DNA of 49,381 bases from Bdellovibrio sp. ZAP7 (GTDB lineage Bacteria; Bdellovibrionota; UBA1018; CAIMNF01): positions 1-49,381 of the forward strand of contig CAMCGZ010000018.1 in the NCBI GenBank assembly GCA_945874535.1, given 5' to 3'. The translations under genes and the position numbers were made by a program. Below are positions 2,682 through 36,355 of the stretch, piece by piece; position 1 is the stretch's first letter; the number at the start of each line of letters is the position of its first letter. Below the pieces are notes generated by a model. The model was not told the DNA's origin and did not search any database. It saw only the letters and a list, made by a program, of their open reading frames with translations.

Positions 2682-2720
2682 GTCAGTGAATCCCGCTCCC
2701 GACTTGGTTACGCTTGAGTC

Positions 2721-3557: not shown

Positions 3558-3567
3558 GAGTGAATGA

Positions 3568-4227: not shown

Positions 4228-4310
4228 ATTATTTCAATTGTTTACACTTATATTATAATAGTTGACAAAAAAACTCCTCCATTAGACCCTGAACGAGGGA
4301 GACTGATTTC

Positions 4311-5527: not shown

Positions 5528-5531
5528 GCAC

Positions 5532-6005
5532 TCAAATCCCGTGCTCAAAGCGAGTCAGATGGTAATCCAAGAACTCCCCTTCACCAAGGTACTCCTGAAA
5601 GCGCACCTGACCGAAGGGGACGTTTCCGAGAATAGTCGTGAGTTGGGAATCCTCGTGATAAAACTCACACACTCGTACCATTTTGTCACCGATCCGCTCG
5701 TTGCCGAGTGCTCCCTCGCGGCTCACACAGGTGGAAAGCACATGTGCGATTTTTTCGGGATTATAAAGAAAACTCCTGGGTAACAGAAACAGCTCATCGC
5801 GCAGAACTTGATCGCCCGATCGCAAGAGTGTCCTGACGCCAAAGTGATCGTTTACGGGGTCATGGCTTTTCACACTTTTTTCAAGGACGAATGCTCGATT
5901 TTGATATTTCGCCATGAACTCGACATGGTCTCCGACTGCGGGAAACGCCGTGGCCGAAGAAACGGACAAAATCGAGATGCCTGTCAGAAACAAAAGGCGA
6001 ATCAT
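5532..6005 (-). CDS. Secreted hypothetical protein, 157 residues
   Basis: An exported protein with a Sec signal (MIRLLFLTGISILSVSSATA, cut before FPAVGD). The mature part is small, mixed alpha/beta in appearance, with two Cys (TCVS and VCEFY) that may form a disulfide. No known domain recognised. It sits between the amidotransferase gene upstream and dinB four bases downstream on the same strand, so it may be in one transcript with them, although no functional link to DNA repair is apparent. Confidence 0.7.
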   Translation of the reverse strand: MIRLLFLTGISILSVSSATAFPAVGDHVEFMAKYQNRAFVLEKSVKSHDPVNDHFGVRTLLRSGDQVLRDELFLLPRSFLYNPEKIAHVLSTCVSREGALGNERIGDKMVRVCEFYHEDSQLTTILGNVPFGQVRFQEYLGEGEFLDYHLTRFEHGI

Positions 6006-6023
6006 GTTTTCAGCCTAGCAAGA

Positions 6024-6773
6024 TCAGCGGCCGGAACCAAGACGGATCCGGGGGGGCTGCGCTCCGCCAAGTCTCAGAAAATTCAGAAAACAGGACTCGC
6101 TGAGCTCGGTCGATCGAGGCAGGTAGAGGTCTGTATCCTTCAACACCTGTGCGGGAGTGAGGATACCGGGGTTATCATCGAAGAAACGCAAATTTGCCGG
6201 GGTGTCAATCCAGTGACGTATGGTGGGCCGATCGATTTCGAGATGGAACTGGAAACCATAGACATGCTTTCCAAAACGGAATCCCTGGGGCGGGCAGAGG
6301 TCAGACTCAGCCAAGTGCTCGGCCCCTGCTGGAATCTGAAAGGAGTCCTGATGGGACTGGAAAACAAATTCTTCCGTTCCGAAGTGCCCCAATACCGGAT
6401 CGACACTACCCGCGGAAGTGAGTCTGATCTTGCTCCAACCCATCTCCTTGACCGGATGCAGAGCCACTCTCGCCCCCAGAACATGAGCGATGATTTGTGA
6501 CCCGAGACAGATCCCCAATACGGGAAGATCGCGCTTCAGCGCCTCTTCAACCAAGGCCATTTCGACCCGAATGTGCTCGTATAAATGGGATTCATACACG
6601 GCCATCTCGCCGCCCATCAGGATCAAACCATCGTAGGAATCCAAGGACGGCCTGGCGTCCGGCTCACGCGCGAAATTGATGTAACGGATCCGGATCCCCT
6701 CGCGCTTCAAGAGAGGATCGAGTGTCCCGAACGGATCGAATGCCTCGTGCTGAATCAGGAGCACCCGCTTCAT
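6024..6773 (-). CDS. Class I glutamine amidotransferase (GMP synthase-like GATase)
   Basis: A free-standing type 1 glutamine amidotransferase of 249 residues. The nucleophile is Cys89 in GICLGSQ. The rest of the triad is His177 and Glu179 in FQFHLEID. The oxyanion-loop Gly-Gly is in LILMGGEMAVYE. It resembles the YfeJ/GuaA-N-like subfamily that hydrolyses glutamine or gamma-glutamyl compounds. No synthetase partner lies beside it, so the acceptor is unknown. No good Shine-Dalgarno site precedes the ATG. It appears to lead the minus-strand run that continues into the secreted protein and dinB. Confidence 0.85.
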   Translation of the reverse strand: MKRVLLIQHEAFDPFGTLDPLLKREGIRIRYINFAREPDARPSLDSYDGLILMGGEMAVYESHLYEHIRVEMALVEEALKRDLPVLGICLGSQIIAHVLGARVALHPVKEMGWSKIRLTSAGSVDPVLGHFGTEEFVFQSHQDSFQIPAGAEHLAESDLCPPQGFRFGKHVYGFQFHLEIDRPTIRHWIDTPANLRFFDDNPGILTPAQVLKDTDLYLPRSTELSESCFLNFLRLGGAQPPRIRLGSGR

Positions 6774-6828
6774 ATTTCTATTCTAAGTCGTCCGGAATGA
6801 CCGGACAAGAGTGTGTTACTCTCAAAGC

Positions 6829-7800
6829 ATGGGAGCCACATGGATTGCCAAACCGGTGTCCGCCTTAACCACCGGTGAGTTGAAGGCATGGCACGAGGTA
6901 GACTGGGGACCGAACCTGGCTCCGAGCCAGACTCCGGCATGGGGAACCGCCGGGATTCAACTGGGTGTGGAGCCCATCCTGGTATTCAGTCCCGAGCGTA
7001 GAATCTCGGCCCTGTTTTTCAAAAAGGGATCGGAGGCGGAGTGCGTGAACGGGCCCGTTTACGAATGGACCCGAATCGATTCTGCGACACAGCAAAACGA
7101 GCTGATCGGAATGACGGTTCATGCCCTGTTGAAATGCAAACCGGAAATCACCCGGGTGACCTTGAGACCGAGAATGGCCGAGGCCGATCTGGACCCCTTT
7201 CTGGAACGAACTGCTTTCCCAGCCGACGGAGTGGACCGGAGTTCCACCTTGATCCTGAGCCTCGAGTCTCCTGATGAATCCGATTTGTTTCAAACGCTCG
7301 GGCCTCGGATCCGACATGAAGTCCGTAGAGCCAGGAGGTCGCAGGTAGAGACAGAACAACTCGATTCTGCATCTGCCATGGACTCGTTCTGGAAGCGTTG
7401 CTCGGACCTTTATTCAAAAAAGGGACTCTGGATTCCTCCGGTCGATTGGTTCCGCTCCTTCGTCGATCATACGGACCACGGAATTTCCATCTTCCGGAGC
7501 ACCCACCTCCCGACAGGAAGTCTCTGTGAGGTTCTGGTTTTCGAGGCGGGCACTTCCGCCTTCAATCTGTTCGCCGCAGAAACCCGGACCTCCGACTGTC
7601 CGAACCTGAGCTTGAATGCTTCAGCCCAATGGGAAGCCATCAAGACTCTTCATAAATTAGGGCTCCGGACCTACGATTTGAACGGCATCTCGCATCCGGA
7701 CACCGAAACTCCGGAAGGATTCCTGGGAGTGGATGCCTACAAGAAAAAATTCAAAGGCCGCTCGGTCCGGTTTGCACATCCCTTGCTTCGATTCGGCTGA
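6829..7800 (+). CDS. FemAB/GNAT-like acyltransferase
   Basis: About 323 residues, cytoplasmic. The C-terminal half has features of the FemX/GNAT fold: RHEVRRARRS near the middle, then YDLNGISHPDT and GVDAYKKKFKGRSV, the 'YDxxGI...KxxFxG' end typical of FemA/B/X and related peptidoglycan bridge or aminoacyl transferases. The N-terminal half is a diverged GNAT-like lobe. The substrate is not evident. I prefer ATG 6829. The frame also opens at GTG 6811, giving six extra residues, and neither start has a strong ribosome site. It is divergent from the amidotransferase gene. Confidence 0.7.
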   Translation: MGATWIAKPVSALTTGELKAWHEVDWGPNLAPSQTPAWGTAGIQLGVEPILVFSPERRISALFFKKGSEAECVNGPVYEWTRIDSATQQNELIGMTVHALLKCKPEITRVTLRPRMAEADLDPFLERTAFPADGVDRSSTLILSLESPDESDLFQTLGPRIRHEVRRARRSQVETEQLDSASAMDSFWKRCSDLYSKKGLWIPPVDWFRSFVDHTDHGISIFRSTHLPTGSLCEVLVFEAGTSAFNLFAAETRTSDCPNLSLNASAQWEAIKTLHKLGLRTYDLNGISHPDTETPEGFLGVDAYKKKFKGRSVRFAHPLLRFG

Positions 7801-7850
7801 ATTCGGGGTTTTCTCTGGTCAATCACTCCCCGCTGGAATAGGAACTATGC

Positions 7851-8831
7851 ATGGAATCATCTTCAGGCGTATTGATCGGCGGAATTCTTGCATTCATCCT
7901 GCTTAAGTTCCTCCAGGGGCTCAGGGCAAAGAAGCTCGTACCCGATTGGCTCGCCAGAGGAGCTGTGATTGTCGACGTGAGGACAGCTGCCGAATTCAAA
8001 GTGGCTTCGAACCCCAAAAGCATGAATATCCCTCTGGATCAGCTCGAGGCGAAAGCGGCATCCATCCCCGAGGGGAAAGCCGTCATTGTTTGCTGCGCGA
8101 GCGGAATGAGAAGTGCGGCTGCGAAAGCGATCTTGAGAGCCAAGGGGTTCAATGAAGTGCTCAATGCAGGCCCTTGGACCCGGACACTACTCCTGTTGAT
8201 TCTGGTGACCCTGCACGGACCTTCGAGCAAAGCCGGGAGCTGGGAAGAAACGGGAGAAGACAGCGGAATCAAGCTTTTCAAAAAAGAACTACCGGGCTCT
8301 TCGGTTGTCGCCTTCAGAGGTGAGACCGTGATCGAGGAAGGGATGCCGAGAATTGTCGGAGTCCTCGAGAACGTAGAACGGGGTAAAGAGTGGATGGCTG
8401 ACATTGCCGAAAGCTTCAATATTGAAAAACACACCGACACCGATCGCTGGGAGTACAATCGGACCAAGACCCCTTGGCCACTTCAGGATCGTGATTTCGT
8501 GATCCACACCCAGTCTCGCTTCATCAAGTCTCCAGAGCCCTCCCTCATCATCGAAATGACCTCGGGAGAGAACCCAAAAAAACCTGCCGTATCCGGAGTG
8601 GTCAGAGGCCAATTGATCGACAGCCGCTTCATTCTCAAGTATCTCGGCCCGAAGAGAACCTATCTGATCTGCGAAATCCAAGCTGATCCGAAAGGAGTGA
8701 TCCCGAAGTGGGTGGTGAATCTCTTTCAAAGTCACTGGCCCGTGGACACCATCAAAGCATTGAAAAAGCAGCTTAAAAAAACAGACATTGTCGAGAACCA
8801 GAACATGGCTAAAGCGATAGCCGATTTCTGA
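7851..8831 (+). CDS. Rhodanese-START two-domain membrane protein
   Basis: 326 residues with an unusual layout. Residues about 6-22 are a membrane segment (GVLIGGILAFILLKFLQG) followed by RAKK. Residues 30-105 form a rhodanese domain: IVDVRTAAEF, then the active loop CCASGMRS with the catalytic Cys, ending VLNAGPW. A second hydrophobic stretch (TLLLLILVTLHG, about 108-119) follows. Residues about 125-326 look like a START lipid-binding domain (WEETGEDSGIKLFKKE, DRWEYNRTKTPWPLQDRDF, YLICEIQADPKGVIPKWVVN). By charge, the rhodanese would face the cytoplasm and START the periplasm. AGGAAC lies before the ATG. The second hydrophobic segment looks like a signal peptide of a formerly separate START protein, so fusion or frame joining is possible. 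Confidence 0.8.
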   Translation: MESSSGVLIGGILAFILLKFLQGLRAKKLVPDWLARGAVIVDVRTAAEFKVASNPKSMNIPLDQLEAKAASIPEGKAVIVCCASGMRSAAAKAILRAKGFNEVLNAGPWTRTLLLLILVTLHGPSSKAGSWEETGEDSGIKLFKKELPGSSVVAFRGETVIEEGMPRIVGVLENVERGKEWMADIAESFNIEKHTDTDRWEYNRTKTPWPLQDRDFVIHTQSRFIKSPEPSLIIEMTSGENPKKPAVSGVVRGQLIDSRFILKYLGPKRTYLICEIQADPKGVIPKWVVNLFQSHWPVDTIKALKKQLKKTDIVENQNMAKAIADF

Positions 8832-13628: not shown

Positions 13629-13892
13629 GCCTACTAGTAAAGCAAGCCTGATGCCAAACAGACTGCTCCGACGTTCACGATTTTTTTCAGTGATTACACA
13701 CGTCGGATTCTGTGTTGCAGCTGAAACCGTTGCATGGCTTGTTTTTGAGTCTGACAAATGTCCAAAAAATTGACAGACCCGATTCCATCGAAGGGCAGTT
13801 TGAGTCTTGTGAATTTTGCGAGTTTTGAGAGAATCAGGTTCAGCGGCGATTTTGTTTTTCAGTTTCCAAATTTGAAGGAAAAGGATTTCCTC

Positions 13893-14339
13893 ATGAATAA
13901 CAAGCAGATCAGGCCCGAAGCCTACCCCCTCATCATTCAGGTCATTCACAACCACCTGATGATTTATTCTCCGGACTTCAATTACAGGGTGGTGGAAGCC
14001 TGGCGGCCAGAAGACATCGGCCAGACGGAAATGATGGTGTTGAAAGTCCGAAAAGAACTGTCGAATCGGCTCCAACTTTCACTGAACAGGAGTATCCCCC
14101 CTCCCCTGCCCAGCCCCCACTCCTCACTCCGACTGGTAGAAGATCAGGATTGGATCTCGACTCGAGATACCGCGCGCCTCCTTCAGGTTTCAGAAGAAAC
14201 CGTCCGACGCCTGGCAGATCAGGGTGGCCTCCCCTGTAGGCTCACCCCCGGGGGTCACCGAAGGTTCACGCGTCAATCCGTATCTGACTACTTGAGCCGC
14301 TCACATGACCTCCCGCGACCGCTCGAGGGCGAGGCCTGA
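13893..14339 (+). CDS. Helix-turn-helix (excisionase/MerR-like) DNA-binding protein
   Basis: 148 residues from ATG 13893, which has AAGGAAAAGGA upstream. An in-frame ATG at 13758 lacks a ribosome site. The C-terminal third is a clear winged HTH of the excisionase/BldC type: WISTRDTARLLQVSEETVRRLADQG, then the wing PCRLTPGGHRRF and RQSVSDYL. The N-terminal 80 residues (IIQVIHNHLMIYSPDFNYRVVEAWRPEDIG) are unrecognised and may sense or dimerise. The gene lies directly before the parA leader, so it could regulate partition or replication, but that is by position only. The bases from 13629 to 13892 form its shared promoter region with the divergent coiled-coil gene. Confidence 0.75.
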   Translation: MNNKQIRPEAYPLIIQVIHNHLMIYSPDFNYRVVEAWRPEDIGQTEMMVLKVRKELSNRLQLSLNRSIPPPLPSPHSSLRLVEDQDWISTRDTARLLQVSEETVRRLADQGGLPCRLTPGGHRRFTRQSVSDYLSRSHDLPRPLEGEA

Positions 14340-14638
14340 ACTTCTTAAGTAATTGAATTTGTTTACCTCATTTTCCGAATTCCGAGGCTAAACCGAAACT
14401 GACTCTTTTTTCTCGTTTTGAGATTCGTCCGAATCCTCCTCTTCGTTCGCATCGTACAAACTTCATTCTTCTCGCTCACCGTTCTCTTCACTCGAAACGC
14501 CTGAACCGGACGACACTCACTCTTCTGTCAAAAAAATATCTGAGGAAGAATCGTCTGAACCCCTCTATGCTCACAGATAAGGAATGATTCGAAGTTTGAA
14601 CGTTTCGTGAATTACGAACACATTTCAAGGAGAGAGAA
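14340..14638. other. Leader of the parA operon, candidate centromere (parS)
   Basis: This 299-base stretch has no gene. It is pyrimidine-rich on the plus strand (repeated TTCTC, CTCTTC). It contains an inverted repeat ATTCG-TC-CGAAT (14423-14434) and another, TTCGT-gaatt-ACGAA (14604-14618), next to the parA ribosome site. Type Ib partition systems with a small DNA-binding partner usually keep the centromere in this upstream position, so it is the best place for parS. I could not define a regular direct-repeat array. Confidence 0.4.
14604..14618. promoter_or_regulatory. Perfect inverted repeat before parA, candidate operator
   Basis: TTCGT-GAATT-ACGAA is a perfect 5-5-5 inverted repeat lying 20 bases before the parA start and just upstream of the AAGGAGAGAG ribosome site. 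This is a natural place for autoregulation by the partition partner protein. Confidence 0.4.
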
Positions 14639-15406
14639 ATGAAAATTTTCACCGTTGCGAACTCGAAAGGGGGATCCGGTAAAACCACCACCGCCTTCAA
14701 CCTCGGTCACGAGTTGGCCCGTTTGGGTAAGAAAATCCTGATGGTTGATTTCGATCCTCAGGCCAGCCTCACCAATAGCTTCAAAGTGGAACTCCCTCAG
14801 GACCAGATCTACATTGAAGACTTGGTATCCAAAGCAGGGCAGGGGAGGCTGTCTGTCGGTGACGCCATCGTTCAGCCGAAACCGAACCTCTTCCTGATCC
14901 CCTCTACGGGTGCCCTCGGCAATCTCGAAAGCGAACTGAAAGGACCCGCAGGACTCGTGAGACTCCGCGAGTGCCTGAAGGGCGTCCTCCACTTGGGATT
15001 CGATGCAGTCATCATTGATCCACCGGGATCATCGGATGTCTTCATGTCGATGTCACTCCTCGCGGCAAACGAGGTGATTATCCCTGCAAGACCGACTGAT
15101 ACCGACATCGCGACTCTCAGGGAGTTCGTTCCATTCATTGAGGAGCACCGCGCACTCAATCCGGCACTTTCCATTCGGGGGATTGTGCTCAATCAGGTGC
15201 AAAGTTCATCGAAAAACGCTCAATTCTACTTGGATCGTCTGACGGAGATCGGGCTTGGAAGTTTGATTTTCAAATCCAGCATCCGTTCGGCAATCGATGC
15301 AGCCAATTCATTAGCCTACGGACAGTGCTCTTCCGAACACAAACCGAAGGCTCCAGTTTCAAAAGACTATCAAGAACTCGCACAGGAGGTGGCGCCATGG
15401 CTCTAG
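14639..15406 (+). CDS. parA: ParA partition ATPase (type Ib)
   Basis: 255 residues. The deviant Walker A motif is KGGSGKTT at the N-terminus with the signature Lys, followed by MVDFDPQAS (A') and AVIIDPPGSSD (Walker B). There is no N-terminal HTH, so it belongs to the short ParA type that works with a small centromere-binding partner. It would move replicon copies by ATP-dependent gradients on the nucleoid. AAGGAGAGAG precedes the ATG. The last 10 bases overlap the partner gene, indicating translational coupling. Context with iterons and a Rep gene supports a plasmid or chromid role, not the chromosomal Soj/MinD role. Confidence 0.92.
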   Translation: MKIFTVANSKGGSGKTTTAFNLGHELARLGKKILMVDFDPQASLTNSFKVELPQDQIYIEDLVSKAGQGRLSVGDAIVQPKPNLFLIPSTGALGNLESELKGPAGLVRLRECLKGVLHLGFDAVIIDPPGSSDVFMSMSLLAANEVIIPARPTDTDIATLREFVPFIEEHRALNPALSIRGIVLNQVQSSSKNAQFYLDRLTEIGLGSLIFKSSIRSAIDAANSLAYGQCSSEHKPKAPVSKDYQELAQEVAPWL

Positions 15407-15732
15407 ATCATAACGCAGGACAAAAAAGAACCGTCGGATTGGCTCGAAATCTTTTCGCATCGAACAACGCTGCACCCACAGTCGACATCGCTCCGCCCGT
15501 CACGGCACCGGTGAAAACACAGCCTGTTCCGACTTACGATCGTAAGGCCGAACAGGCTGAGACCTCGCCGGCTCGCACTAAGAAGATTTCCTTCCTGGCC
15601 GACCCGCGCCTGGAAGAACGCTTCCGCAAAGCAAGACTCCGGGCAGGGTTCGATAAACTGGAAGACGCCTACAACGAAGCGATCAAGACCTTCTGCGATC
15701 TGGTGGATGCCGGAAAAATCGACCGGTTTTGA
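15397..15732 (+). CDS. Small ParB-like partition partner
   Basis: 111 residues. ATG 15397 has GGAGG seven bases upstream and overlaps the parA stop. The N-terminal 65 residues are flexible, Pro/Ala rich and basic (QKRTVGLARNLF), fit to contact ParA. The C-terminal KKISFLADPRLEERFRKARLRAGFDKLEDAYNEAI has a short beta-strand followed by two helices, as in ribbon-helix-helix centromere-binding proteins. It is not a classic ParB with a CTPase domain. Assignment rests on position and this fold guess. Confidence 0.7.
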   Translation: MALDHNAGQKRTVGLARNLFASNNAAPTVDIAPPVTAPVKTQPVPTYDRKAEQAETSPARTKKISFLADPRLEERFRKARLRAGFDKLEDAYNEAIKTFCDLVDAGKIDRF

Positions 15733-15792: not shown

Positions 15793-17442
15793 ATGGCGAA
15801 ATCCCGTCCTGACCTTCTCAAGTATTACCGCCTTGGGGGCCAAGAAATCGCGATCATCTCCGTTTATGGAGTCTTGATCGGATTTTTATCTCTGTCGATC
15901 CCCATTGCGGTACAAAGTCTCGTCAATTCGGTGGCCTTCGGTTCTGTCCTGCTACCGGTGTTCATTCTTTCATTGATGGTTTTTCTGGGCCTCGGATTCA
16001 GTGGAGCGCTGAAACTGGCCCAAAGAAAAGTCGTTGAGTGGATCACCATCAAAGTCTTCTTCAGGACCACGATTGCGTTGGGACGTCATCTTCCCAGCTT
16101 GAAGGAAGAGGCGCTGGATACCACTTATGATCGAACCTATTTTTCAAGGTACCTAGAACTCTTCTCTGTCCAGAAAAACCTGAGCGGACTTCTGGTGGAT
16201 CTACTTGATTTCACCCTGATCGTGGGTTCAGGAATGCTGATTGTGGCGCTTTATCACCCGGCATTTCTGGTTTTTGACATCTTGCTCGTATTCTCACTGT
16301 TTTTTGTCGTCCGCGTAGTGGGCAAGGACGGGATTAACACCAAGCTGGACGAATCGGAAAGCAAGTACGACCTTGCAACCTGGATGATGAGTCTTTCCCG
16401 ACCGGCGGTGGCACTCCGCGGTTTGAACGGTATCGAGCTCGCACAAGAGAGAACCCAGTCCCTCGCTGATTCTTTCATTCAAACCCGAGCCAAGCACTTC
16501 AAAGTACTGTTCCGGCAGCAGGCTGGATTTCTACTCATCTCCGTACTATCGTCGACCGCGCTTCTCGGAGCCGGCGGGGTGCTCGTATTCAACAATCAAC
16601 TCTCTCTCGGGCAATTGGTGGCGGCTGAAATCATCCTGGCAGGGGTGCTCGCTTCCATCGGCAAGCTCGACAAGATCATGGAGAACTATTTCGGCATCGT
16701 AGCCTCCATCGACAAACTCGAGAGCTTATTCGCCATTCCGGCCGAAACGATCAACGAGTCAGGACATTTTCCCGGCAAGCTTTCCGGGAAAATCGACTTG
16801 CAAGGAATCAACTACCGGTATCCGGGAGGCTCGGAGCTTTGGTCACCCATCCATCATTCCATCGTTCCCGGATCAAAGGTTGCCATCATGGGGCCGTCCG
16901 GTTCCGGTAAGAGCACCCTCTTGGAACTCATCTACGGTCTACGCAACGCCTCAGAGGGCCAACTCCTTTTCGATGACCTGAACTCAAAGGATCTTCATCT
17001 GAAGCGACTGCGCGACCACATCGGATTCACTTCCATCTTTCAGGTGATTCCCGGAACACTGTTGGCCAATATCGAGCTTGGACGGAATGTCGACTTTCCG
17101 CATCTGACTTCGCTCGTACGCGACCTGGCTCTGGAGGACTCTGTCTCAGCACTTCCAAACGGTTATCAAACCGAACTTGAACCTGTGGCTCTTCCTTTTT
17201 CAGTTGGCCAGAAAGCCCGCTTCTCTCTTCTAAGAGCCTTGGTTCATTCTCCAGAGATCCTGATCATTGATGAATCTCTCGACCAGATCGATCCGGAACT
17301 CCAGGATCGGGTGTGGGAAGTCATTCGCATGAGAATGACGGGCAAAACCGTATTGATTGCCACCCATGACGAACGGATCATGAAAAAGTGCGATCACATG
17401 ATCGAACTCAAAAGATCAAAGAATGCCGGAGTTGAATCATGA
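15793..17442 (+). CDS. ABC exporter, fused membrane and ATPase domains (type I secretion-like)
   Basis: 549 residues. Residues about 1-310 form a six-helix exporter membrane domain. The ATPase domain has Walker A GPSGSGKST near residue 366, Q-loop FTSIFQVIPGT, Walker B ILIIDES near 490 with the catalytic Glu, and H-loop ATHDER. The ABC signature is degenerate: FSVGQ instead of LSGGQ. There is no N-terminal C39 peptidase, so the substrate would not be a double-glycine peptide cleaved by this protein. AAGAAGG precedes the ATG. The stop overlaps the HlyD start by four bases (ATGA). With the next two genes it forms a complete type I secretion or efflux triad, energised here. Confidence 0.88.
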   Translation: MAKSRPDLLKYYRLGGQEIAIISVYGVLIGFLSLSIPIAVQSLVNSVAFGSVLLPVFILSLMVFLGLGFSGALKLAQRKVVEWITIKVFFRTTIALGRHLPSLKEEALDTTYDRTYFSRYLELFSVQKNLSGLLVDLLDFTLIVGSGMLIVALYHPAFLVFDILLVFSLFFVVRVVGKDGINTKLDESESKYDLATWMMSLSRPAVALRGLNGIELAQERTQSLADSFIQTRAKHFKVLFRQQAGFLLISVLSSTALLGAGGVLVFNNQLSLGQLVAAEIILAGVLASIGKLDKIMENYFGIVASIDKLESLFAIPAETINESGHFPGKLSGKIDLQGINYRYPGGSELWSPIHHSIVPGSKVAIMGPSGSGKSTLLELIYGLRNASEGQLLFDDLNSKDLHLKRLRDHIGFTSIFQVIPGTLLANIELGRNVDFPHLTSLVRDLALEDSVSALPNGYQTELEPVALPFSVGQKARFSLLRALVHSPEILIIDESLDQIDPELQDRVWEVIRMRMTGKTVLIATHDERIMKKCDHMIELKRSKNAGVES

Positions 17443-18440
17443 GCTTCTCGGAATCTGAAATCAGAAAACACGCCAGGGTCGCCAAATTACTCTCTTGGTC
17501 TTTTGTCGGATTCTTACTCTCCCTGACCATCCTGCCATGGGCACAAACCGTGATCGGAAAGGGTAGGGTAGTCGCCTTTTCACCGACCGAACGGGAACAG
17601 CGGATCATCGCTCCGATCGACGGGCGTGTGAAAAAATGGTTTATCGCCGAAGGCTCCATCGTGAAGAAAGGGGATCCGATTGTCGAGCTGACCGATGTCG
17701 ATCCGGACATCCTGAAGCGTCTCGAGCAAGAACAGATCGCTACCAAGAAAAAGATCTCTGCCGCCAAACTCGGAATCGAGACTGCCCGGAAAAATCTCCA
17801 GCGACAGGAGAAACTCTTCGAGGAAGGGATTTCTTCGAGGAGGAGCTACGAGTTGGCGAATCTAGAGCTGGTGAAATACCTTACAGACGAGGCGAATGCC
17901 ACTTCAGAGTTGGCCAAACTAGACGTCCGTATGGCAAGGCAGGCCGCCCAGCTGGTGTCGGCACCGGTCGACGGGATCATTACCAAACGTCTGACCGGGC
18001 AAGAAGGGGAGATCGTCAAAATCGGTGCCGAACTCTCAGTCCTGATCCCGAGTACCGAGTCACGGGCGGTTGAACTCTGGGTACGAGGCAATGACATGCC
18101 CCTGATCCACAAGGATCAATCGGTCCGGCTCCAGTTTGAGGGGTGGCCCGCCATCCAGTTCTCGGGCTGGCCGTCAGTAGCAGTCGGGACCTTTCCGGGT
18201 AAAGTGCTTTGGGTGGATCCCACGAGTAACGAAACCGGTGAGTTCAGAATCATGATCCTTCCGGAGGGCGGAGTGGGGAATTGGCCGGATCCGGGGTTCC
18301 TTCGACAAGGAGTGAGAACGATCGGGTGGGTCAACATCAAGTCCGTTTCACTCGGATACGAGCTGTGGCGACAGTTCAACGCATTTCCCATCGTGCCAGA
18401 GATCGGAGCCGGAAAGAAATCAAAGGACGGCAAAGAATGA
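17439..18440 (+). CDS. HlyD-family periplasmic adaptor (membrane fusion protein)
   Basis: 333 residues. A single N-terminal membrane helix (LLSWSFVGFLLSLTILPWAQ) is followed by a lipoyl-like half motif (IIAPIDGRVKKWFIAEGSIVKKGDPIVEL). A short coiled-coil hairpin (residues about 90-165) comes next, then the second half (VSAPVDGIITKRLTGQEGEIVKIGAELSVLIP) and a beta-barrel domain. It bridges the ABC exporter and the outer-membrane channel. It is joined to both neighbours by ATGA overlaps, so the three proteins are made together. Confidence 0.9.
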   Translation: MSFSESEIRKHARVAKLLSWSFVGFLLSLTILPWAQTVIGKGRVVAFSPTEREQRIIAPIDGRVKKWFIAEGSIVKKGDPIVELTDVDPDILKRLEQEQIATKKKISAAKLGIETARKNLQRQEKLFEEGISSRRSYELANLELVKYLTDEANATSELAKLDVRMARQAAQLVSAPVDGIITKRLTGQEGEIVKIGAELSVLIPSTESRAVELWVRGNDMPLIHKDQSVRLQFEGWPAIQFSGWPSVAVGTFPGKVLWVDPTSNETGEFRIMILPEGGVGNWPDPGFLRQGVRTIGWVNIKSVSLGYELWRQFNAFPIVPEIGAGKKSKDGKE

Positions 18441-19831
18441 TCCGGCACCTCACCCTGCTGGGGCTGCTCTTCTGGTCGAATGAGGCTCGGGGATCTATCC
18501 GCTTTTCAGAATTGGCCGGTCGCATCTTCAGTGAGTCCGACTTGAAATCCCAGATCGAGAGCGATCGGATCCGAGTATTTCTCGAATACCAGGTAGCGGT
18601 GGGAAATCAGTTCGATCCTGTGCTGAAAGGCAAGTATTTCGATCAGTTCAGAGGAGACTACATTCAACGGCGCAAAGAACTCAGCGTGCTTCAGAGGCTG
18701 TCTGTCTGGGGTTCCGCGATCGAGTTCGGATACAATAAAAGCCAGGGGGATTTTGCCGATTACGACGGAAAATACATGACCCAAGACGGTGGGTCACTCC
18801 GAGCCAAGCTCGATATCCCTCTTTTGCGAAACGGATGGACCGACAGCCTCAGAGCCGCCCTCAGAAAAGGGGTCATTTCAAAAGAGGTTTCCGAGTTGCA
18901 ACTCCGTTCACAGTCACTCGACTTGCTCCGCCAAATCGGCTCGCGTTATTGGGATTGGTACCTGAGCGGCCAGCGCCTGAGAGTCGCTGAGAAGATCCTG
19001 AAACTTGCAGAAGACAGACAAGAGAAGATCCGAATCCGAGTGGAAAGGGGGGACATTGCCAAGATCGAAGAGCTCGAGGGAGACCGGACCATCCTGCAAA
19101 GAAAATCCATTTTGGCGCAAGGGAACCGCTCCTTCACGCGTTCTCGACTCGACCTCGAAGCCTTACTGAGCACCCGGGCGGAGACCATCCCTGAACTCTC
19201 GTTGGCCGAAATCCCGGAGATAGCGATCCCTGCGGGGACTCATCCGACCCCCTCGACATGGAAGCAAACGGAACAGGAAGATTCGGAATCCCACCCTGAA
19301 GTCCGAAGACAAAAGCTCATCCTCGAACAGACCGGAATTGATCGCGAACTTGCGGGTAATCAATTTTTACCTAAGTTGGATTTCTCGGTTGAGGCCGGGG
19401 AGAATCTTGGAACTCCTGTTTACGGTCTCAGTAAATTCAGGATGAATGGCGGATTGGTTTTCGAGTTCCCGATTCCGTCGAGGGCAGCATCAGCCCGAAT
19501 CTCACAAGCTGAAGCCCAATGGGTGCGACAGGAAGCGACAGCATCCCTTACCATGGTCCGCATACGAAACCAGATTACCGATTCTGGTGTGGCCCTTGGC
19601 TTGGCAATGGAAAGGCTCCGCTTGGCTACCTCGGAGATGGAACTGGCTAAGAAATTGGTCGATCTGGAGAGCAAACGGTTCCTGGAGGGTGATTCAAACC
19701 TCCTGCTTCTCAATATCCGGGAGCAGAACCTGGCTGAAGCCGAAATACGGAAATACGAAGCATTCTCAGAAATGAAGAAATCCGAAATCGATCTCCGCGC
19801 AGCGCAAGGCCGACTAGAGCTCGTTGACTAA
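18437..19831 (+). CDS. TolC-family outer-membrane efflux protein
   Basis: 464 residues. The start at 18437 overlaps the HlyD stop (ATGA) and gives a signal peptide (MIRHLTLLGLLFWSNEARG). Repeated long helices with the outer-membrane efflux pattern follow (LRQIGSRYWDWYLSGQRLRVAEKILKLAEDRQEKIRIRVERGDIAKIEELEGD in the first half, LAKKLVDLESKRFLEGDSNLLLLNIREQNLAEAE-type in the second), matching the duplicated TolC structure. It would form the outer-membrane exit duct for the ABC-HlyD pair. It ends ten bases before the first iteron. Confidence 0.88.
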   Translation: MIRHLTLLGLLFWSNEARGSIRFSELAGRIFSESDLKSQIESDRIRVFLEYQVAVGNQFDPVLKGKYFDQFRGDYIQRRKELSVLQRLSVWGSAIEFGYNKSQGDFADYDGKYMTQDGGSLRAKLDIPLLRNGWTDSLRAALRKGVISKEVSELQLRSQSLDLLRQIGSRYWDWYLSGQRLRVAEKILKLAEDRQEKIRIRVERGDIAKIEELEGDRTILQRKSILAQGNRSFTRSRLDLEALLSTRAETIPELSLAEIPEIAIPAGTHPTPSTWKQTEQEDSESHPEVRRQKLILEQTGIDRELAGNQFLPKLDFSVEAGENLGTPVYGLSKFRMNGGLVFEFPIPSRAASARISQAEAQWVRQEATASLTMVRIRNQITDSGVALGLAMERLRLATSEMELAKKLVDLESKRFLEGDSNLLLLNIREQNLAEAEIRKYEAFSEMKKSEIDLRAAQGRLELVD

Positions 19832-19840: not shown

Positions 19841-20347
19841 TTCCTTGTGGTACGAATTCTGGGTTGAGGTATTTCCATCCGGTACGAATTTGGGCTGAAA
19901 ATGGACCCGAATTCGCACTTCTTCGAAATGAATTCGTACTCTCTGGAAAAAACGCTTGAGTTCATCCCGTTCGGTCGGCAAAATTTTCTATATGAACGGG
20001 CAACCATCCCATGTGTCGATTACGCGTGACCCCAAGCAGGGTAGGGTTTTGTCCTTAAATCGTACCTTCTGGAAATCTGATTCGTACCGGAAGGAATTCT
20101 ATTCGCACCTAGCGGAATTCCTCGTATCTATAATTCGTACCTGCCGGAAAAAGAACCCGAATCTCACGCCTGAATTTGACCTAATCACTATCAATTTCAA
20201 ATATTTGAGCGTAGCTCATTGCGGGCAAGGGATTCCGCAGGGACGCTCTTCTGTGTTTCGTACCGGGTGGAAAACCAATTCGTACCCAGCGGAATTTTTA
20301 TCGCCTGAAATTCGTACCCCTCGGAATTCAATTCGTACCGGACGGAA
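19841..20347. repeat. Iteron array, probable replication origin
   Basis: Twelve 17-bp copies of ATTCGTACC-NNNN-GGAA are visible in the 602-base gap before the rep gene. Group 1: 19841-19857 and 19873-19889 (minus), 19911-19927 (plus, diverged) and 19932-19948. Group 2: 20058-20074, 20080-20096, 20101-20117, 20133-20149. Group 3: 20256-20272, 20278-20294, 20310-20326, 20331-20347. Start-to-start distances within groups are 21, 22 or 32 bases, near two or three helical turns. An A+T-rich stretch around 20178-20210 lies between groups 2 and 3 and could be the melting region. No clear DnaA box was found. This is the structure expected of an iteron-controlled origin bound by the downstream initiator. 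Confidence 0.88.
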
Positions 20348-20382: not shown

Positions 20383-20433
20383 TGGTGCGCCCTATAAATA
20401 CGTTTTTATTCATTAGTAAGGGAGAGGAATCAG

Positions 20434-22053
20434 ATGACTCACTCAAACACTGAAATCGTACTTCATGGAAATGCGGCAGGAGTCAAAGAAGAGCAACGGG
20501 AGCTCTTCAATCCAGACTTCACAGTAGAAGCCAATCTGGTCAAATACTCGGCTCTGTTTCCACCCCATTCGCCCGAGACACCTCTTTACAGCACGCGACA
20601 CATCGATGCGCTGAATCCCACTGGAGGTGGTGGGATCATCGTTACGCAGCTGACCACGTCCACTTCTCCGATCTCTAATAAGGGGAAAATCGAACAAGAC
20701 CGAGTCCCGGGGGATTTTGAGAAAAAGGTCTTTTACGCCATTGTCTCCATTTGGGTGACCAACGGTAAGCCTTCAGATGGGATCGTTCATTTTTCAATCG
20801 GAAAGCTCATCGAACAACTGGGTCTGAGCACGGGTGGAAAAAACTACAAGATGGTCAAGGAAGCCATTAGCCGGATCAGCCGATCGACTATCAAGATCGA
20901 GGGCTCTTATGTTTCGGCGCCTGATTTCAGAAAAGATACGAGGGAGTTTTCACTTTTCGCCGATTGCCAGGAAAGTCAATCCAGACGCGGAAGAAAAAGC
21001 CTGAATGGCAATATTGAAACCGACTTTTACAGGATCCGGCTCAATACGGCGATTGTCAGCAACATGATCCACGATTATTCCATTGTGATCCAGGTGAAGG
21101 ATTACACTTCGGCTTCCAGTAAATATTACCGGCGTATGGTGGACATCATCGAGTTCGAATTCCAAAAAGGATCCGGCGTAGGCCAGGAGAAAATCGAATT
21201 CCTGCTCTCACAACTTGCAAAGAATCTCCCATTGGAAGGAGAGGCATCCAACGTCAGCACCATTCTGAAAAGACTCTCGGCATCGCTCAGAGAATTGGTC
21301 GAGTTGGGAGGGTATCGTTATGATGTCACCAAGGTGGGCAACAACGCGCTCCTCACGATTTACTCTAAAACCCATACCCGCGAGATTTTGAAGCAAAAAA
21401 CAATCGAAGAGGAGATCGAAGAGTTCTTCAAGATCCACGAACGCCTTTTCTCGACAGCTATTTCGACCACACTCGGTGAATCCCAGAAGGCTGTATACGA
21501 TTTTTTGTCGGCGGACGGAACACGAATCGAGTTCGATGGGAAATCATTCCTGAAACCCCTGCACATCCTCGATGTCATGGTGTTCCAGTATCATGTCAGG
21601 AATGGCAAAAAACAGCTTCGGAAGTGGTCGGCAGCCAATGAAGAACGAGGCTCGATTCTTCGAATTGCGAGGAGTATTCTGAACGGATCGAACACGCTCA
21701 AATATCCGGACGGATACAAAACCTATTTTGAGCGCCTTCGTGATGCTGAGGCCTTGATCGCCAAGAACCAGTTGGAGGCCAGGGAGCAGGTTCGTACCCA
21801 GAGTGCCGCCCAGGAAGCGGAGAAACAGGCACGAAATCTTTATGGTGAGTTGAACACTTCAGGACTCAATCATTACCTGAAGAGGTTGAGAGAGGAGTTT
21901 CCAAAACTTCCAGAAGAAGCGATCCGAAGTGAAAAAATGATCACGGACACCATCATGGAAGACATACTTGACGGGTCTTTGAGCCGGGTTCACTTCAGGA
22001 ATCTTCAACCCCTATTGGAGAGAACGGCATTCACGAGGGGTGAGATCGGTTAA
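20434..22053 (+). CDS. Replication initiator protein (iteron-binding Rep)
   Basis: 539 residues. GGGAGAGG precedes the ATG. Residues about 90-290 look like tandem winged-helix domains of plasmid initiators: FEKKVFYAIVSIWVTNGKPSDG, FSIGKLIEQLGLSTGGKNYKMVKEAISRI, then a second part with SASLRELVELGGYRYDV. This is similar in layout to the RPA/TrfA/RepA group. The C-terminal 230 residues are helical and charged, with a FLSADGTRIEF segment and a coiled coil (LIAKNQLEAREQVRTQSAAQEAEKQ), perhaps for oligomerisation or helicase contact. It would bind the iterons just upstream and open the origin. The exact Pfam family is uncertain, but its role is strongly supported by context. Its stop interlocks with that of the convergent barrel gene (TTAA). 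Confidence 0.85.
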   Translation: MTHSNTEIVLHGNAAGVKEEQRELFNPDFTVEANLVKYSALFPPHSPETPLYSTRHIDALNPTGGGGIIVTQLTTSTSPISNKGKIEQDRVPGDFEKKVFYAIVSIWVTNGKPSDGIVHFSIGKLIEQLGLSTGGKNYKMVKEAISRISRSTIKIEGSYVSAPDFRKDTREFSLFADCQESQSRRGRKSLNGNIETDFYRIRLNTAIVSNMIHDYSIVIQVKDYTSASSKYYRRMVDIIEFEFQKGSGVGQEKIEFLLSQLAKNLPLEGEASNVSTILKRLSASLRELVELGGYRYDVTKVGNNALLTIYSKTHTREILKQKTIEEEIEEFFKIHERLFSTAISTTLGESQKAVYDFLSADGTRIEFDGKSFLKPLHILDVMVFQYHVRNGKKQLRKWSAANEERGSILRIARSILNGSNTLKYPDGYKTYFERLRDAEALIAKNQLEAREQVRTQSAAQEAEKQARNLYGELNTSGLNHYLKRLREEFPKLPEEAIRSEKMITDTIMEDILDGSLSRVHFRNLQPLLERTAFTRGEIG

Positions 22054-25338: not shown

Positions 25339-26617
25339 ACTTGATCTCCTCAGTGATTCCTTCGCAGGTGGCCACCCCCGATGTCAGGCGTGAATAGGCG
25401 AGTCCGAGCGTGTTGTTCTCAGTCTGAAACCACGGTTCGGAGGTTTCTGTCCAGGGTCCGAAGTAGCTATTTCCGAAATAGATCGCAAATCCTGTACAAA
25501 AGAACAAGAAATAACCGCGGATCACAGGGACTCTCGCAGCCAGTGCGGTAAATGCGGTTGCAGCTAGAACTATGAAAAATGGCCATGCAGCGATTGCCCG
25601 GAGTGCATGGGGAACGCTTTCCCAAGTGAGCGCTGAGGGGAGGATTCCGAGACCGGCGCCGGCGAACAGGAATAGGGTGTCCTGCCGGGGAAGTTTTTTA
25701 TTCCGGATCATTCCCAGGATCAGAACGACTAGACCTCCTGAGAGTAAAAAGTATTCAGGCGCACTCATCATGCCTGTAGCACGTGTCGAATGCCTCAGGT
25801 TCTGGTCGCCCGACAGGAGAAGGAATTCCGGGCTCAGGTGTTTCAACCCGTTCAAAACGGCATTCCACATCACCTCAATCCACCCGGCATCACGGAGCGG
25901 ACTCATGGGGTGGCTGCTCCACAAGACGAGCATTTCGGCCCGGGCGGTGAAGCGGGGATCCACCCATGAGCGCCAAAATACCGGCGCCAGCACGGCAAAC
26001 AGGATTGCCATGGAGTACGATTTCTTTCTCCAGTCGAGACCCGGAAGGAGCAATACGAGAGGCAGAGTCAGGATACGGGTTCCCGGATACGCCACGGATG
26101 CCAATCCAAAAGCAAGGGCTCCCACTACCCAATGGTATCGCCAACGCATCCCTTCAAAGCAATAGAGCCCCAGAACGATGAAAAAGACCGACAGGGGCGG
26201 ATCCCATGCGATTCGTGAAAACTGAAAGGCCCAAGGCGAGATACTGGCAAGCAGTGCCGCGATCCACGCGGTCTCTTCACCCCGTTTTTTTCGTACCCAG
26301 AGGAAAAGAAACAGAATCGTCAAACAAGTGACGAAGGCGGGAAAGGTCCTGAAGGCAGCTGTGGAGGTTCCGAAAATACGAGTCCAGAGGGCTTCGCCGA
26401 AAAGATAGGGTGCGGTGTAATAGCCGGCACCCAGTCCGGCTGAGAATAGCGGAAGGGTATTGCCGAACAGATCTTTGCCCGTTTCTCCCAAGCAAAGTGC
26501 ATGAGCCGCTCCGACCGCCTCATCCACATAAAAGCCCGCGGGAGAGCGATCCGTCGCGATGAAACGGACAAGATTCAGGATCAGGACGGACCCGATCAGC
26601 CAGTGCCGGAAACGCAT
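25313..26617 (-). CDS. ArnT/PMT-like membrane glycosyltransferase (GT-C)
   Basis: 434 residues with about ten membrane helices. The first periplasmic loop has FYVDEAVGAAHA, with Asp-Glu in the place of the catalytic acidic residues of GT39/GT83 enzymes, and LPLFSAGLGAGYYTAPYLFGEALW follows, matching the dolichyl-phosphate mannosyltransferase/ArnT pattern. It would transfer a sugar from a polyprenyl phosphate in the periplasm. It forms a two-gene unit with the methyltransferase downstream. A 17-bp sequence matching the replication iterons lies in its coding region and another just upstream of its start. Confidence 0.78.
   Translation of the reverse strand: MRFRHWLIGSVLILNLVRFIATDRSPAGFYVDEAVGAAHALCLGETGKDLFGNTLPLFSAGLGAGYYTAPYLFGEALWTRIFGTSTAAFRTFPAFVTCLTILFLFLWVRKKRGEETAWIAALLASISPWAFQFSRIAWDPPLSVFFIVLGLYCFEGMRWRYHWVVGALAFGLASVAYPGTRILTLPLVLLLPGLDWRKKSYSMAILFAVLAPVFWRSWVDPRFTARAEMLVLWSSHPMSPLRDAGWIEVMWNAVLNGLKHLSPEFLLLSGDQNLRHSTRATGMMSAPEYFLLSGGLVVLILGMIRNKKLPRQDTLFLFAGAGLGILPSALTWESVPHALRAIAAWPFFIVLAATAFTALAARVPVIRGYFLFFCTGFAIYFGNSYFGPWTETSEPWFQTENNTLGLAYSRLTSGVATCEGITEEIKFGPFRNLK
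26289..26305 (+). repeat. Isolated iteron match inside the glycosyltransferase gene
   Basis: TTTCGTACCCAGAGGAA matches the origin iteron consensus ATTCGTACC-NNNN-GGAA at 12 of 13 fixed positions. It has the same T at position 1 as the origin copy at 20256. It lies in coding sequence for FLWVRKK on the minus strand, so it may be fortuitous. Confidence 0.3.
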
Positions 26618-26634: not shown

Positions 26635-26651
26635 AATCGTACCGGATGGAA
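26635..26651 (+). repeat. Isolated iteron match in an intergenic gap
   Basis: AATCGTACCGGATGGAA matches the iteron consensus at 12 of 13 fixed positions. It differs from the origin copy at 19873-19889 by one base. It sits in the 40-base gap between the TonB receptor gene end and the glycosyltransferase start. Confidence 0.45.
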
Positions 26652-26657
26652 ACCGAA

Positions 26658-28745
26658 TTAGATTCCGGCGCTCAGGCCGAAAGAAAAGTTCCGCGGCATC
26701 GCAGGCTCGATCCCGTTGCTCCGGACCCTCGAGAAGTAGCCTTCATCGAGCAAGTTGAAAACTCCGGCAAAGACGTTGATTCCGGTGTGTGGAATCTTTC
26801 CCTCGAGAGTCAGATCCACGACCCGGTAAGCAGGGATCTTTCGGTTGATGCTGTTTTCGTCATCTCCGAAGTGATCGGAAACAAAGGTGTGAAGCAGGCT
26901 TGCCTTGGCGCGAGTTCCAATATTCGAATAGAGCCCGTTCTTGACGAGCCACTTCGGTGCGTATTGTGGAGTTTTTCCGGAGAGCGAACCCTCTTTGAAG
27001 CGCGCATGCAGAGCGGTGAGGTTCCCGACCCAGTGCAGATCCATCGGACCCCGGAGGATCTCAAGGTCATATGCGGCCTCTAGACCCTGGTGAATCGCCG
27101 CACCGGTATTCTTGCGGACGTTTCCAACCCGGCCGAATTGATCCGTGTAAGAGATCAGAAAAGCCGAGAGGTCCCAAGTCAACCGCTCACTGAGGCGGTC
27201 CCGGATACCGGTTTCCAGTGTCCAGGCTTTCGAGGGTTTCAGATCCTCACTGATCAAGTCCCCGGTGTTGAGCGGGACCGTGTCTTGAAAAGCCATGGGG
27301 CGGTAGCTTTGTGAAAAATTAAGATAGGCTTCCCGCCTGGAGTCGATTCTGGTTTCGATTCCGAGGCCGAAAAGCGGAACATGAGCCCACTCGGAGTTGT
27401 TTCTGAGTGGAACAGCGCTTCCCGAGTTCAAGTTCTCACGAATCGCCTGATAGATGTTTTCAACCCGGATACCGGGGGTGACCGAAGTACGCCCCCATTC
27501 AAATCGTTCTTCGAGGAAAAGGGAGACCGTCCGGGTTTTGCGATCGATATTCTTCTGGGCTGCTCCCGATGAGGCATCACCGCTCGTACCTTGCTCCTGG
27601 ATAAACGGTGAGTCCACGGCATAAAGAAGCACGCCGGAAGAAAGGGTGTTCCGTTCTGCAAGGAAGGCATGATCCCATTTGACGCGGGTATCGTTTGCCA
27701 AGGTGTAAAAATTCTGTTTTTGAATGGTGTTCGAATTTGCGTTGGGTGTTCCGCCGAACTGACTAGCAGTCTCGAGATTTTGACGGAAGGAATTGCGGGT
27801 GAAGGCTCCTCCATACAGATGTGAAACCAGCAAAAGACTTGAGTTGAGCTCATTCCTGTACTCGAGCGAGCCGAAGGTTCTGCCGAGCTCCAGCCGATCG
27901 TTGGGGGTTGTGGTCTGGGTGCGATCTCCCGAGGGCGATGCCAGCCCACCGGGCTCTCCGTGGGTTGAGCCATACACGTGTGCAGACAGGGAGAGACTCT
28001 CTCCTTTTTTGAATGCGTGAGACCAATTCAGCCTCGCTTGGCCGATATCATAACGGCTGTTCGATTGGCGGAATCCGTCGCTCGAACGTTTTTGCGCTTC
28101 TACCAGCACAGCATCATTTTCAGAAACCGGAACCTGCGTTCCGAGGGAGTAGGTACTGGAATTGAAGCTACCACTCCTGAAGCCCGACCAAAGCTTGAAT
28201 CCTTCGCCCTGCTTGGGCTTCCGGAGCTGATAAGAGATCGCTCCACCCGGCATGGGGCCATACAGCAAACCGGCGCCGCCTCGAAAAAACTCGGACCGTT
28301 CCACCCATTCGGCGGGAGGTTGGTAGTAGTTGGCGCCATAGCCATACATGTCGGAGGCAAGGGGGACGCCGTCGGCGAGGAAAAGCAAATTCTGGGATTC
28401 GTGCGGATCTCCGAGGCCACGAACACTCATGGATGAGTAGCTCTCGTTATTGACTTCACTCACCATGATTCCGGGTGTCCTTGCAAACTGGTACCGGAAG
28501 TTGTTGGTCGGGGCCACGGGCGCCGCTTTTGAATCCACAACGATCACTTTCTTGCCTTTTTTGAGCTGGGTTTCCCGGGATTCTGTAACCAGAGGGGATA
28601 AGGATTGACGCCAAGAGTCGCGATCACCGGTGACCTCGATTTCCGGAAGTACCAGAACTTCTTCAGCTCGAGCCGGCGTCAAGAGGGTCGAGAGCAAGAT
28701 CAGAGTCAGAGAAAGGGCGCGGGCCTTATTGATAATCATTATCAT
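26658..28745 (-). CDS. TonB-dependent outer-membrane receptor (iron/siderophore type)
   Basis: 695 residues. The signal is INKARALSLTLILLSTLLTPARA, followed by EEVLVLPEIEVTGDR. The plug domain holds NFRYQFARTPGIMVSEVN, MSVRGLGDPHESQNLLFLADGVP and FFRGGAGLLYGPMPGGAI. The 22-strand barrel ends PRNFSFGLSAGI. The segment FNLLDEGYFSRVRSNGIEPAMPRN is typical of FecA/FcuA-like receptors. It imports a ferric chelate with TonB-ExbBD, which are not in the window. A perfect 7-1-7 Fur box overlaps its first codons and no Shine-Dalgarno site is present. The second ATG (M3, 28739) may be the true, perhaps leaderless, start. Confidence 0.9.
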   Translation of the reverse strand: MIMIINKARALSLTLILLSTLLTPARAEEVLVLPEIEVTGDRDSWRQSLSPLVTESRETQLKKGKKVIVVDSKAAPVAPTNNFRYQFARTPGIMVSEVNNESYSSMSVRGLGDPHESQNLLFLADGVPLASDMYGYGANYYQPPAEWVERSEFFRGGAGLLYGPMPGGAISYQLRKPKQGEGFKLWSGFRSGSFNSSTYSLGTQVPVSENDAVLVEAQKRSSDGFRQSNSRYDIGQARLNWSHAFKKGESLSLSAHVYGSTHGEPGGLASPSGDRTQTTTPNDRLELGRTFGSLEYRNELNSSLLLVSHLYGGAFTRNSFRQNLETASQFGGTPNANSNTIQKQNFYTLANDTRVKWDHAFLAERNTLSSGVLLYAVDSPFIQEQGTSGDASSGAAQKNIDRKTRTVSLFLEERFEWGRTSVTPGIRVENIYQAIRENLNSGSAVPLRNNSEWAHVPLFGLGIETRIDSRREAYLNFSQSYRPMAFQDTVPLNTGDLISEDLKPSKAWTLETGIRDRLSERLTWDLSAFLISYTDQFGRVGNVRKNTGAAIHQGLEAAYDLEILRGPMDLHWVGNLTALHARFKEGSLSGKTPQYAPKWLVKNGLYSNIGTRAKASLLHTFVSDHFGDDENSINRKIPAYRVVDLTLEGKIPHTGINVFAGVFNLLDEGYFSRVRSNGIEPAMPRNFSFGLSAGI
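28730..28744. promoter_or_regulatory. Fur box
   Basis: The minus strand reads TGATAAT-G-ATTATCA, a perfect 7-1-7 inverted repeat identical to the classical Fur core. It overlaps the first five codons of the TonB receptor and lies just after its predicted promoter, so bound Fur with iron would block initiation. Confidence 0.85.
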
Positions 28746-35440: not shown

Positions 35441-36355
35441 ATGGGTTGGCTCAAAAGGGTTCTGATCTTCGTTTGTGGATTACACGCGCTTGTCGTGTTC
35501 GCCGAGCCGCGGGATGAGGCTGCTTCCCTTATTGCCAAATACCGAGATGCAGAGGCCATGACCGCCCGTCTCAGCGCTTTTTCATCCGAGTTTTTGGGGC
35601 TTCCGTATGGAACCACCGGTCCACTCGGTGAGGGTCTTTCCGGCAGGTACGATCAAGACCCTCTCTATCGCTTTGACACCTTCGATTGCACCACCTTTGT
35701 CGAAACAGTGGTTTCTCTGAGTCTATCCACAAACGTGGATGCCTTTGAAACCTCCATGAACCGCATTCGTTACGAGGGTGGAGAAGTCGAGTTTCTGAAA
35801 CGGAATCATTTTCCAAGTCTTCAGTGGATTCCCAATAACCTTTCGAACGGAATCTTTGAGGAAGCCAATTCGAAAGTCCTTCCTGATGAAGAACAGTCTC
35901 TGGCTGAAGCGATGATTGACATCGGGGGATGGCTGAAAAAATCCGGTCCGGGGTTGATTCAAATTCCGGGGCTTTCCACTTCTGAGCGTACCGAGCGGGG
36001 GCTCGAGCTTCAAGGGCAGGCTGACCGGTTTTCACCTGTCCGCGCGACTCTCAAGTACCTGCCCATCGCTCGCTTGCTCAGGGACCCTGCATTGCTCCGA
36101 CGGATTCCGGACGGCGCCATCATCAATTTTGTCAGGCCGAATTGGGATCTGATTGCATCGACCGGAACCCGGATGAATGTTTCCCACCAGGGGTTGGTAT
36201 TCAATACCTCGAAAGGGATCAGACTCCGTCACGCCAGCGTCAGTGGCGAAAAGCGGGTGATGGAAGTGAGCCTGCTCACCTATTTGAAAGCGTTTGAGAA
36301 TCATCCCACCATGAAGGGGATCCACCTGCTCACTTTGCGCCAGTCAGGGCTTTGA
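35441..36355 (+). CDS. DUF1460 cell-wall amidase-like protein (NlpC/P60-like)
   Basis: 304 residues. ATG 35441 gives a signal peptide (MGWLKRVLIFVCGLHALVVFA). The core has FLGLPYGTTGPLGEG, then RFDTFDCTTFVETVVSLSLS with the likely nucleophile Cys, and MNVSHQGLVF with the His, which is the DUF1460 (PF07313) arrangement of NlpC/P60-like N-acetylmuramoyl-L-alanine amidases. It would cut peptidoglycan in the periplasm. It lies 31 bases after the GIDE gene on the same strand. Its 3' end overlaps the convergent secreted-protein gene by 26 bases. Confidence 0.85.
   Translation: MGWLKRVLIFVCGLHALVVFAEPRDEAASLIAKYRDAEAMTARLSAFSSEFLGLPYGTTGPLGEGLSGRYDQDPLYRFDTFDCTTFVETVVSLSLSTNVDAFETSMNRIRYEGGEVEFLKRNHFPSLQWIPNNLSNGIFEEANSKVLPDEEQSLAEAMIDIGGWLKKSGPGLIQIPGLSTSERTERGLELQGQADRFSPVRATLKYLPIARLLRDPALLRRIPDGAIINFVRPNWDLIASTGTRMNVSHQGLVFNTSKGIRLRHASVSGEKRVMEVSLLTYLKAFENHPTMKGIHLLTLRQSGL

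Follow-up and report, generated by a model that had tools for sequence, protein, structure and literature searches.

Base-fixed spacing of an iteron array at the probable origin of a circular plasmid in a Bdellovibrionales lineage

A dense cluster of short repeats is located at positions 19841–20347 of contig CAMCGZ010000018.1 of Bdellovibrio sp. ZAP7 (assembly GCA_945874535.1), and it raises the question of whether this locus is a replication origin and, if so, to what type of replicon it belongs. The stretch analyzed, here called the window, comprises the 49,381 nucleotides of this contig, while the genome from which it derives (G000) is a MAG fragmented into 39 contigs. The evidence assembled below makes it very probable that the locus is the Rep-driven, iteron-controlled origin of a circular theta plasmid of a Bdellovibrionales lineage, with a size of at least 66 kb, and of 77 kb in a sister species.

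A search of the window for the 17-mer iteron, allowing up to two mismatches, returned 18 matches against 1.17 expected, the largest count obtained from shuffled sequence being 4. The region 19841–20347 contains twelve iterons, of which seven are exact (19841 and 19873, both on the minus strand, and 20080, 20133, 20278, 20310 and 20331), four carry a single mismatch (19932, 20058, 20101 and 20256), and one, at 19911 (ATTCGCACTTCTTCGAA), is degenerate with three mismatches, yet is kept at the same position in two further species, represented by genomes G015 and G140. The initial annotation had described twelve copies in three groups of four, the first being composed of two inverted followed by two direct copies, and this arrangement is indeed what is found, although a thirteenth copy had been missed. 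The latter (20454–20470, plus strand) lies within the start of the rep gene, 123 bp past group 3, is kept in G015 and G140, and represents a candidate autoregulatory site; a single iteron at the start of rep is also present in the more distant origins G160:C48, G095 and G160:C376.

The first group is made up of module 1a (19841–19889, minus strand), i.e., the inverted iterons 19841–19857 and 19873–19889, 32 bp apart, and module 1b (19911–19948, plus strand), i.e., the degenerate iteron 19911–19927 and iteron 19932–19948, 21 bp apart. The reversed pair at the outer edge is likewise 32 bp apart in G015 and G140, and 31 bp apart in the distant G095, while a direct pair of the module 1b type, with its 21-bp step, is also present in G178, G160 and G095. 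Module 2 (20058–20149, plus strand) is formed by iterons 20058, 20080, 20101 and 20133, with steps of 22, 21 and 32 bp, and is followed 123 bp further on by module 3 (20256–20347, plus strand), formed by iterons 20256, 20278, 20310 and 20331, with steps of 22, 32 and 21 bp. The proposal that spacings within groups are solely 21, 22 or 32 bp is therefore accurate for groups 2 and 3, but not for group 1, whose steps are 32, 38 and 21 bp, the 38-bp step between inverted and direct copies falling outside this set. The suggestion that the repeats occupy one face of the DNA holds for the plus-strand copies, including that in rep (vector length R = 0.84 at 10.46 bp, a value matched by 0.16% of random layouts). 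The array, with direct repeats close to rep at whole-helical-turn spacing, is as expected of an iteron-type theta plasmid origin, in which such repeats measure about 17–22 bp.

This spacing is retained across species to the base. The series 126-(22, 21, 32)-123-(22, 32, 21) is identical in the window genome, G015, G140 and G178, which represent four species. Degeneracy places a few copies of module 2 below the pattern threshold, namely the third one in G140 and the second one in G178, the latter having been read directly off the sequence. The Rep proteins of G015 and G140 share 94% and 90% amino acid identity, respectively, with that of the window genome; the contig of G178 ends at the first codons past the array, so that its rep is cut off and no Rep was found in this genome, while its ParA is 83% identical. 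The spacers between the iterons, in contrast, exhibit pairwise identities of 0.45–0.54 among the window genome, G015 and G140, and of 0.35–0.38 in comparisons with G178, against 0.71–0.86 for the iterons over the same species comparisons. The origin alignment of the first three species contains one gap column, whereas that with G178 contains 12 gap columns which cancel, as 12 bases of gap were opened on either side in a single spacer that does not differ in length. As the steps are identical in four species while the spacers have fallen to 35–54% identity, the iteron geometry appears, on this comparative evidence, to be under selection. Constant spacing over diverged spacers provides natural evidence for a selected face-of-helix arrangement, which is otherwise known from experimental work with a small number of model plasmids. 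One further element, GGCAAAATTTT (19977–19987, plus strand), does not belong to the iterons but is conserved in all four species; it is located 45 bp past iteron 19932, the fourth of the array, a distance that is held in both the window genome and G178 (8536–8546), and the origins of more distant relatives yielded no copy of it.

The gene adjacent to the array, rep (20434–22053, plus strand), encodes a 539-residue initiator assigned to Rep3_N (PF01051) and RPA (PF10134), with two predicted winged-helix domains. The single sequence matches the PF01051 profile with 25 bits (cut-off 22.4) and PF10134 below the cut-off of that profile, while in an alignment of six family members all six match PF10134, with a best E value of 1.1e-10. 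An AlphaFold (AF2) model, of low confidence (pLDDT 64), exhibits two winged-helix domains, and a Foldseek search of the PDB with this same model returned strong matches only to domains 2–3 of RctB (E 4e-10); no sequence match to solved structures was found. By sequence, the plasmid relatives are initiators of Rubrobacter and Deinococcus annotated as TrfA or replication initiator protein A, and the Rep shows weak sequence similarity (24.8%) to known TrfA. An initiator of the Rep_3/RPA winged-helix class is thus encoded beside the repeats, as is usual for an iteron-type theta plasmid origin. Relatives of this Rep were identified in six of 291 genomes of the genus and phylum. A phage or phage-plasmid was rejected, the Rep having neither a phage match nor a PHROG match, and an RNA-controlled origin was likewise rejected, no Rfam family being detected in the window.

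A conserved set of genes accompanies the origin, i.e., an HTH_17 protein upstream of parA (13758–14339, plus strand) that forms part of the conserved plasmid backbone, a ParA-family partition ATPase (14639–15406, plus strand), and a small ORF overlapping the end of parA (15325–15732, plus strand), the true start of which may be further in. The ParA is present in six genomes of the genus, in each case on the contig that carries the origin, and five of these six also possess a detected Rep. The product of the small ORF shares 53–60% identity with counterparts in G160 and G178 and has no Pfam match; it represents a candidate centromere-binding partner, and the three genes together (13758–15732) a candidate partition system. 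Between parA and the origin (15793–19831) are ABC transporter, HlyD-like and TolC-like genes, constituting a type I secretion set that has no match in G178:C103, where the array lies within about 100 bp of the parA set. The window also encodes, on the minus strand (43239–47582), a 1447-residue protein with bacterial Ig-like domains, which is likely a surface protein.

The type of replicon is indicated by comparison with the sister species. The window contig and contig G015:C8 (77,199 bp) are collinear once the latter is circularly permuted, window positions 1–7873 aligning to 69274–77138 of that contig and window position 8130 onward aligning from its base 13, so that the two ends of G015:C8 adjoin in the window, as they also do in G140. 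Joining these ends creates a junction that is spanned by an open frame, the product of which aligns without gaps to a START-domain protein of the window. A second contig of the window genome, C32, when reversed, covers G015:C8 positions 69254–49497 and abuts the first base of the window by synteny; it fills more of the ring, which brings the plasmid of the window genome to at least 66 kb. Since no terminal overlap of the contigs was found, circularity is established by synteny, and the autonomy of the replicon is indicated by synteny, the continuous frame and skew rather than by physical closure. Furthermore, the block yidC-rnpA-dnaA-dnaN-recF-gyrB (gene names read from translations) is located on a different contig, C1, and a chromosomal oriC was rejected on the basis of this location, with no DnaA box of up to one mismatch in the array origin. 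Judged by sequence and synteny, the array appears to be the origin of a circular plasmid and not that of the chromosome.

GC skew, which the initial annotation had recommended examining around 20.2 kb, switches twice in the plasmid rings of both the window genome and G015, once at the array and once on the opposite side of the ring. The half to the right of the array has a skew of +0.057 and +0.056 in the two rings and the left half one of -0.037, a contrast reached by none of 2000 block shuffles. The skew maximum lies 31.1 kb from the array in the 66.3-kb ring of the window genome and 40.1 kb from it in the 77.2-kb ring, while the minimum lies 2.7–2.9 kb to the left of the array. Despite this offset minimum, the pattern is the trace expected from two-way replication starting at the array. 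Together with the conservation in four species, the skew switch supports the view, put forward in the initial annotation, of an iteron origin with an adjacent Rep and a selected helical spacing, binding of the repeats by Rep being predicted. An AT-rich stretch, TATAAATACGTTTTTATTCATTA (20393–20415, plus strand), is situated between module 3 and rep and is near-invariant in three species; it is a candidate for the -10 region of rep and/or an unwinding element, while a consensus promoter scan upstream of rep, including this stretch, returned no site. DnaA boxes are common, though not universal, in iteron plasmid origins. None (TTATNCACA, up to one mismatch) was found in the origin of the window genome, an absence that is not decisive, as the consensus is also rare around the dnaA gene of this genome.

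A pattern search of the whole genome for the 17-mer, as had been advised, showed that the dense array is unique and that single copies are enriched on the plasmid while occurring at background level elsewhere. The spread of the repeats over the genome, which had been named as an observation that would count against an origin, does not apply to the chromosome (two copies with at most one mismatch in 2.35 Mb), although scattered copies are present on the plasmid itself. A weight matrix derived from three arrays was applied, at a threshold of 12 bits, to the two plasmid contigs of the window genome, with column-permuted matrices as the null. Eight further iterons were identified off the array (0.39 for permuted matrices), five of which are at matching places in G015 (0.03 in the null). 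The five conserved sites are located at 26006–26022 (minus strand), 26289–26305 (plus strand, 17/17 positions identical), 26635–26651 (plus strand, intergenic, the 346-bp step from 26289 being kept), 27502–27518 (plus strand) and 35638–35654 (minus strand), the last two being weaker; across these sites, differences affect 3 of 65 specified bases, against an identity of mostly 70–80% in the flanks. Other off-origin copies include a weaker site at 37014–37030 (minus strand), which is not conserved in G015, and a single iteron outside the window at position 6159 of C32. Conservation was judged against G015, the G140 contig stopping short of these sites, with no match elsewhere in that genome.

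It was considered whether these scattered copies could serve as operators through which Rep regulates plasmid genes, rather than in replication control. Site 26635, in the gap directly upstream of a glycosyltransferase-like gene, would fit such a role, yet most other scattered sites lie inside coding sequence, on either strand, and this explanation is considered unlikely. As most are in coding DNA, their conservation may be partly protein-driven, and three of the eight are not conserved in G015, both of which would be consistent with chance or coding-driven matches. The latter explanation is, however, improbable, as none of 300 column-permuted motifs reached the observed counts, and the plain pattern with at most one mismatch identified three plasmid sites where the chromosomal density predicts 0.06. 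Moreover, the phenomenon recurs with a different iteron in G160:C48, which has six scattered sites of at least 15 bits (0.04 expected) and five of at least 18 bits (0.02 expected). In G095:C82, two scattered sites were found, both within rep and 190 bp apart, a step that recurs between two of the G160:C48 sites, while the searched flanks of two Rubrobacter plasmids contained at most one such site each. We tentatively propose, with rather less than even confidence, that this plasmid lineage has initiator sites dispersed over the replicon, mostly in genes, as a titration or looping system tied to a base-fixed origin, a counterpart, at the scale of a plasmid, of the scattered titration sites of RctB/datA.

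The circular replicon might alternatively be a secondary chromosome (chromid) rather than an accessory plasmid. Gene order is collinear at about 71–76% nucleotide identity in three species, which suggests long residence, and the Rep model resembles RctB. On the other hand, no core gene was recognized among the scanned proteins and no tRNA was found on the window contig, while Rep of this family was not found in seven of twelve genomes of the genus (though one of the seven, G178, has the origin fragment), and a chromid is accordingly thought to be quite improbable. That the array is the silent relic of a plasmid now integrated in the chromosome, as the fragmented assembly and the missing terminal overlap might allow, is scarcely credible given the adjoining ends of G015:C8 with their spanning frame, the two skew switches in both plasmids, the 90–94% identity of Rep and the kept spacing.

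For an iteron-controlled plasmid origin, the following course of events would be predicted. The adjacent TrfA/RPA-like Rep, with its two winged-helix domains, would bind the 17-bp iterons, and the two- and three-turn spacing would set neighboring Rep molecules on one face of the DNA, permitting cooperative binding; according to the literature, iteron binding is cooperative and a half-turn separation of two iterons abolishes this cooperativity (PMC4980987). Winged-helix Reps are known to bind iterons, upon which a neighboring AT-rich element opens (PMC4081077), and Rep bound to modules 2 and 3 would similarly open AT-rich DNA, probably at 20393–20415. Bidirectional replication would then end roughly opposite the array. 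Iteron 20454 most likely allows Rep to repress its own gene, while the outer inverted pair and the scattered iterons most likely absorb Rep (titration) or engage in pairing with the origin (handcuffing), resulting in a low copy number. As a working hypothesis, put forward in the initial annotation, the three groups may have separate tasks in initiation, handcuffing and autoregulation.

Three distant Reps of the genus, those of G160:C48, G095:C82 and G160:C376, share 22–23% identity with the Rep described here, and each has its own array beside rep. Their iterons (CTTTCGTG-N4-CACGGTA and TGTCCTT-N2-ACGGAA, with steps of 21, 22 and 43 bp) are different, yet the single iteron at the start of rep and, in G160 and G095, outer reversed copies beside a direct pair indicate that a similar plan is apparently shared. 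G160 encodes two of these Reps with different iteron sequences, as would be fitting if a single cell harbored two compatible plasmids, and G237, a genome of the same phylum, has repeats near rep that are irregular. One literature search on this question brought up no comparable plasmid replicon from the Bdellovibrionales. The element is of an ordinary kind, an iteron plasmid origin, from a little-described lineage, and is of interest for its base-exact geometry and its scattered initiator sites.

Among known systems, the trfA plasmids of Rubrobacter have an initiator of the same winged-helix class, with 7–14 iterons of about 17–18 bp in several groups upstream of rep at steps of 22 or 23 bp, and with genes for ParA and for a small protein preceding them; the iteron of R. 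radiotolerans (TATCGGGCYYTGAGGGAA) has TCG-NNCC and GGAA halves similar to those of the window iteron. In two of these Rubrobacter plasmids, a lone iteron precedes the main array by exactly 107 bp (14348–14455 in one, 19408–19515 in the other), a further instance of a between-group distance being conserved. As multi-group arrays are ordinary in this class, the grouping into several modules is, contrary to what the initial annotation had supposed, not distinctive in itself. The mixed two- and three-turn steps of the main groups (21, 22 and 32 bp) are particular to this subfamily and, together with the outer inverted pair, the iteron located in rep and the copies scattered on the plasmid, differ from what is seen in TrfA/RPA-type iteron plasmids (RK2 oriV and those of Rubrobacter). 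A DnaA-dependent chromosomal oriC shares the GC-skew switch at the origin, but not the lack of DnaA boxes (up to one mismatch) seen here, and in this genome dnaA-dnaN-recF-gyrB are on C1. Chromosome 2 of Vibrio cholerae, whose initiator RctB is structurally closest to the low-confidence model of Rep, also has regularly spaced iterons, and a site for autoregulation precedes its initiator gene. RctB controls its own expression at the promoter, and scattered sites located 40 kb away from the origin titrate it (PMC6090056); scattered iterons are present on the window plasmid too. The RctB system, however, employs 12-mers with GATC (methylation-dependent) and 39-mer inhibitory sites and serves a chromid, whereas the plasmid described here has one 17-bp site type, its iteron consensus lacking GATC and no second repeated site type being found in the aligned origin. 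The conserved scattered iterons make replicon-wide initiator titration testable outside Vibrio chromosome 2.
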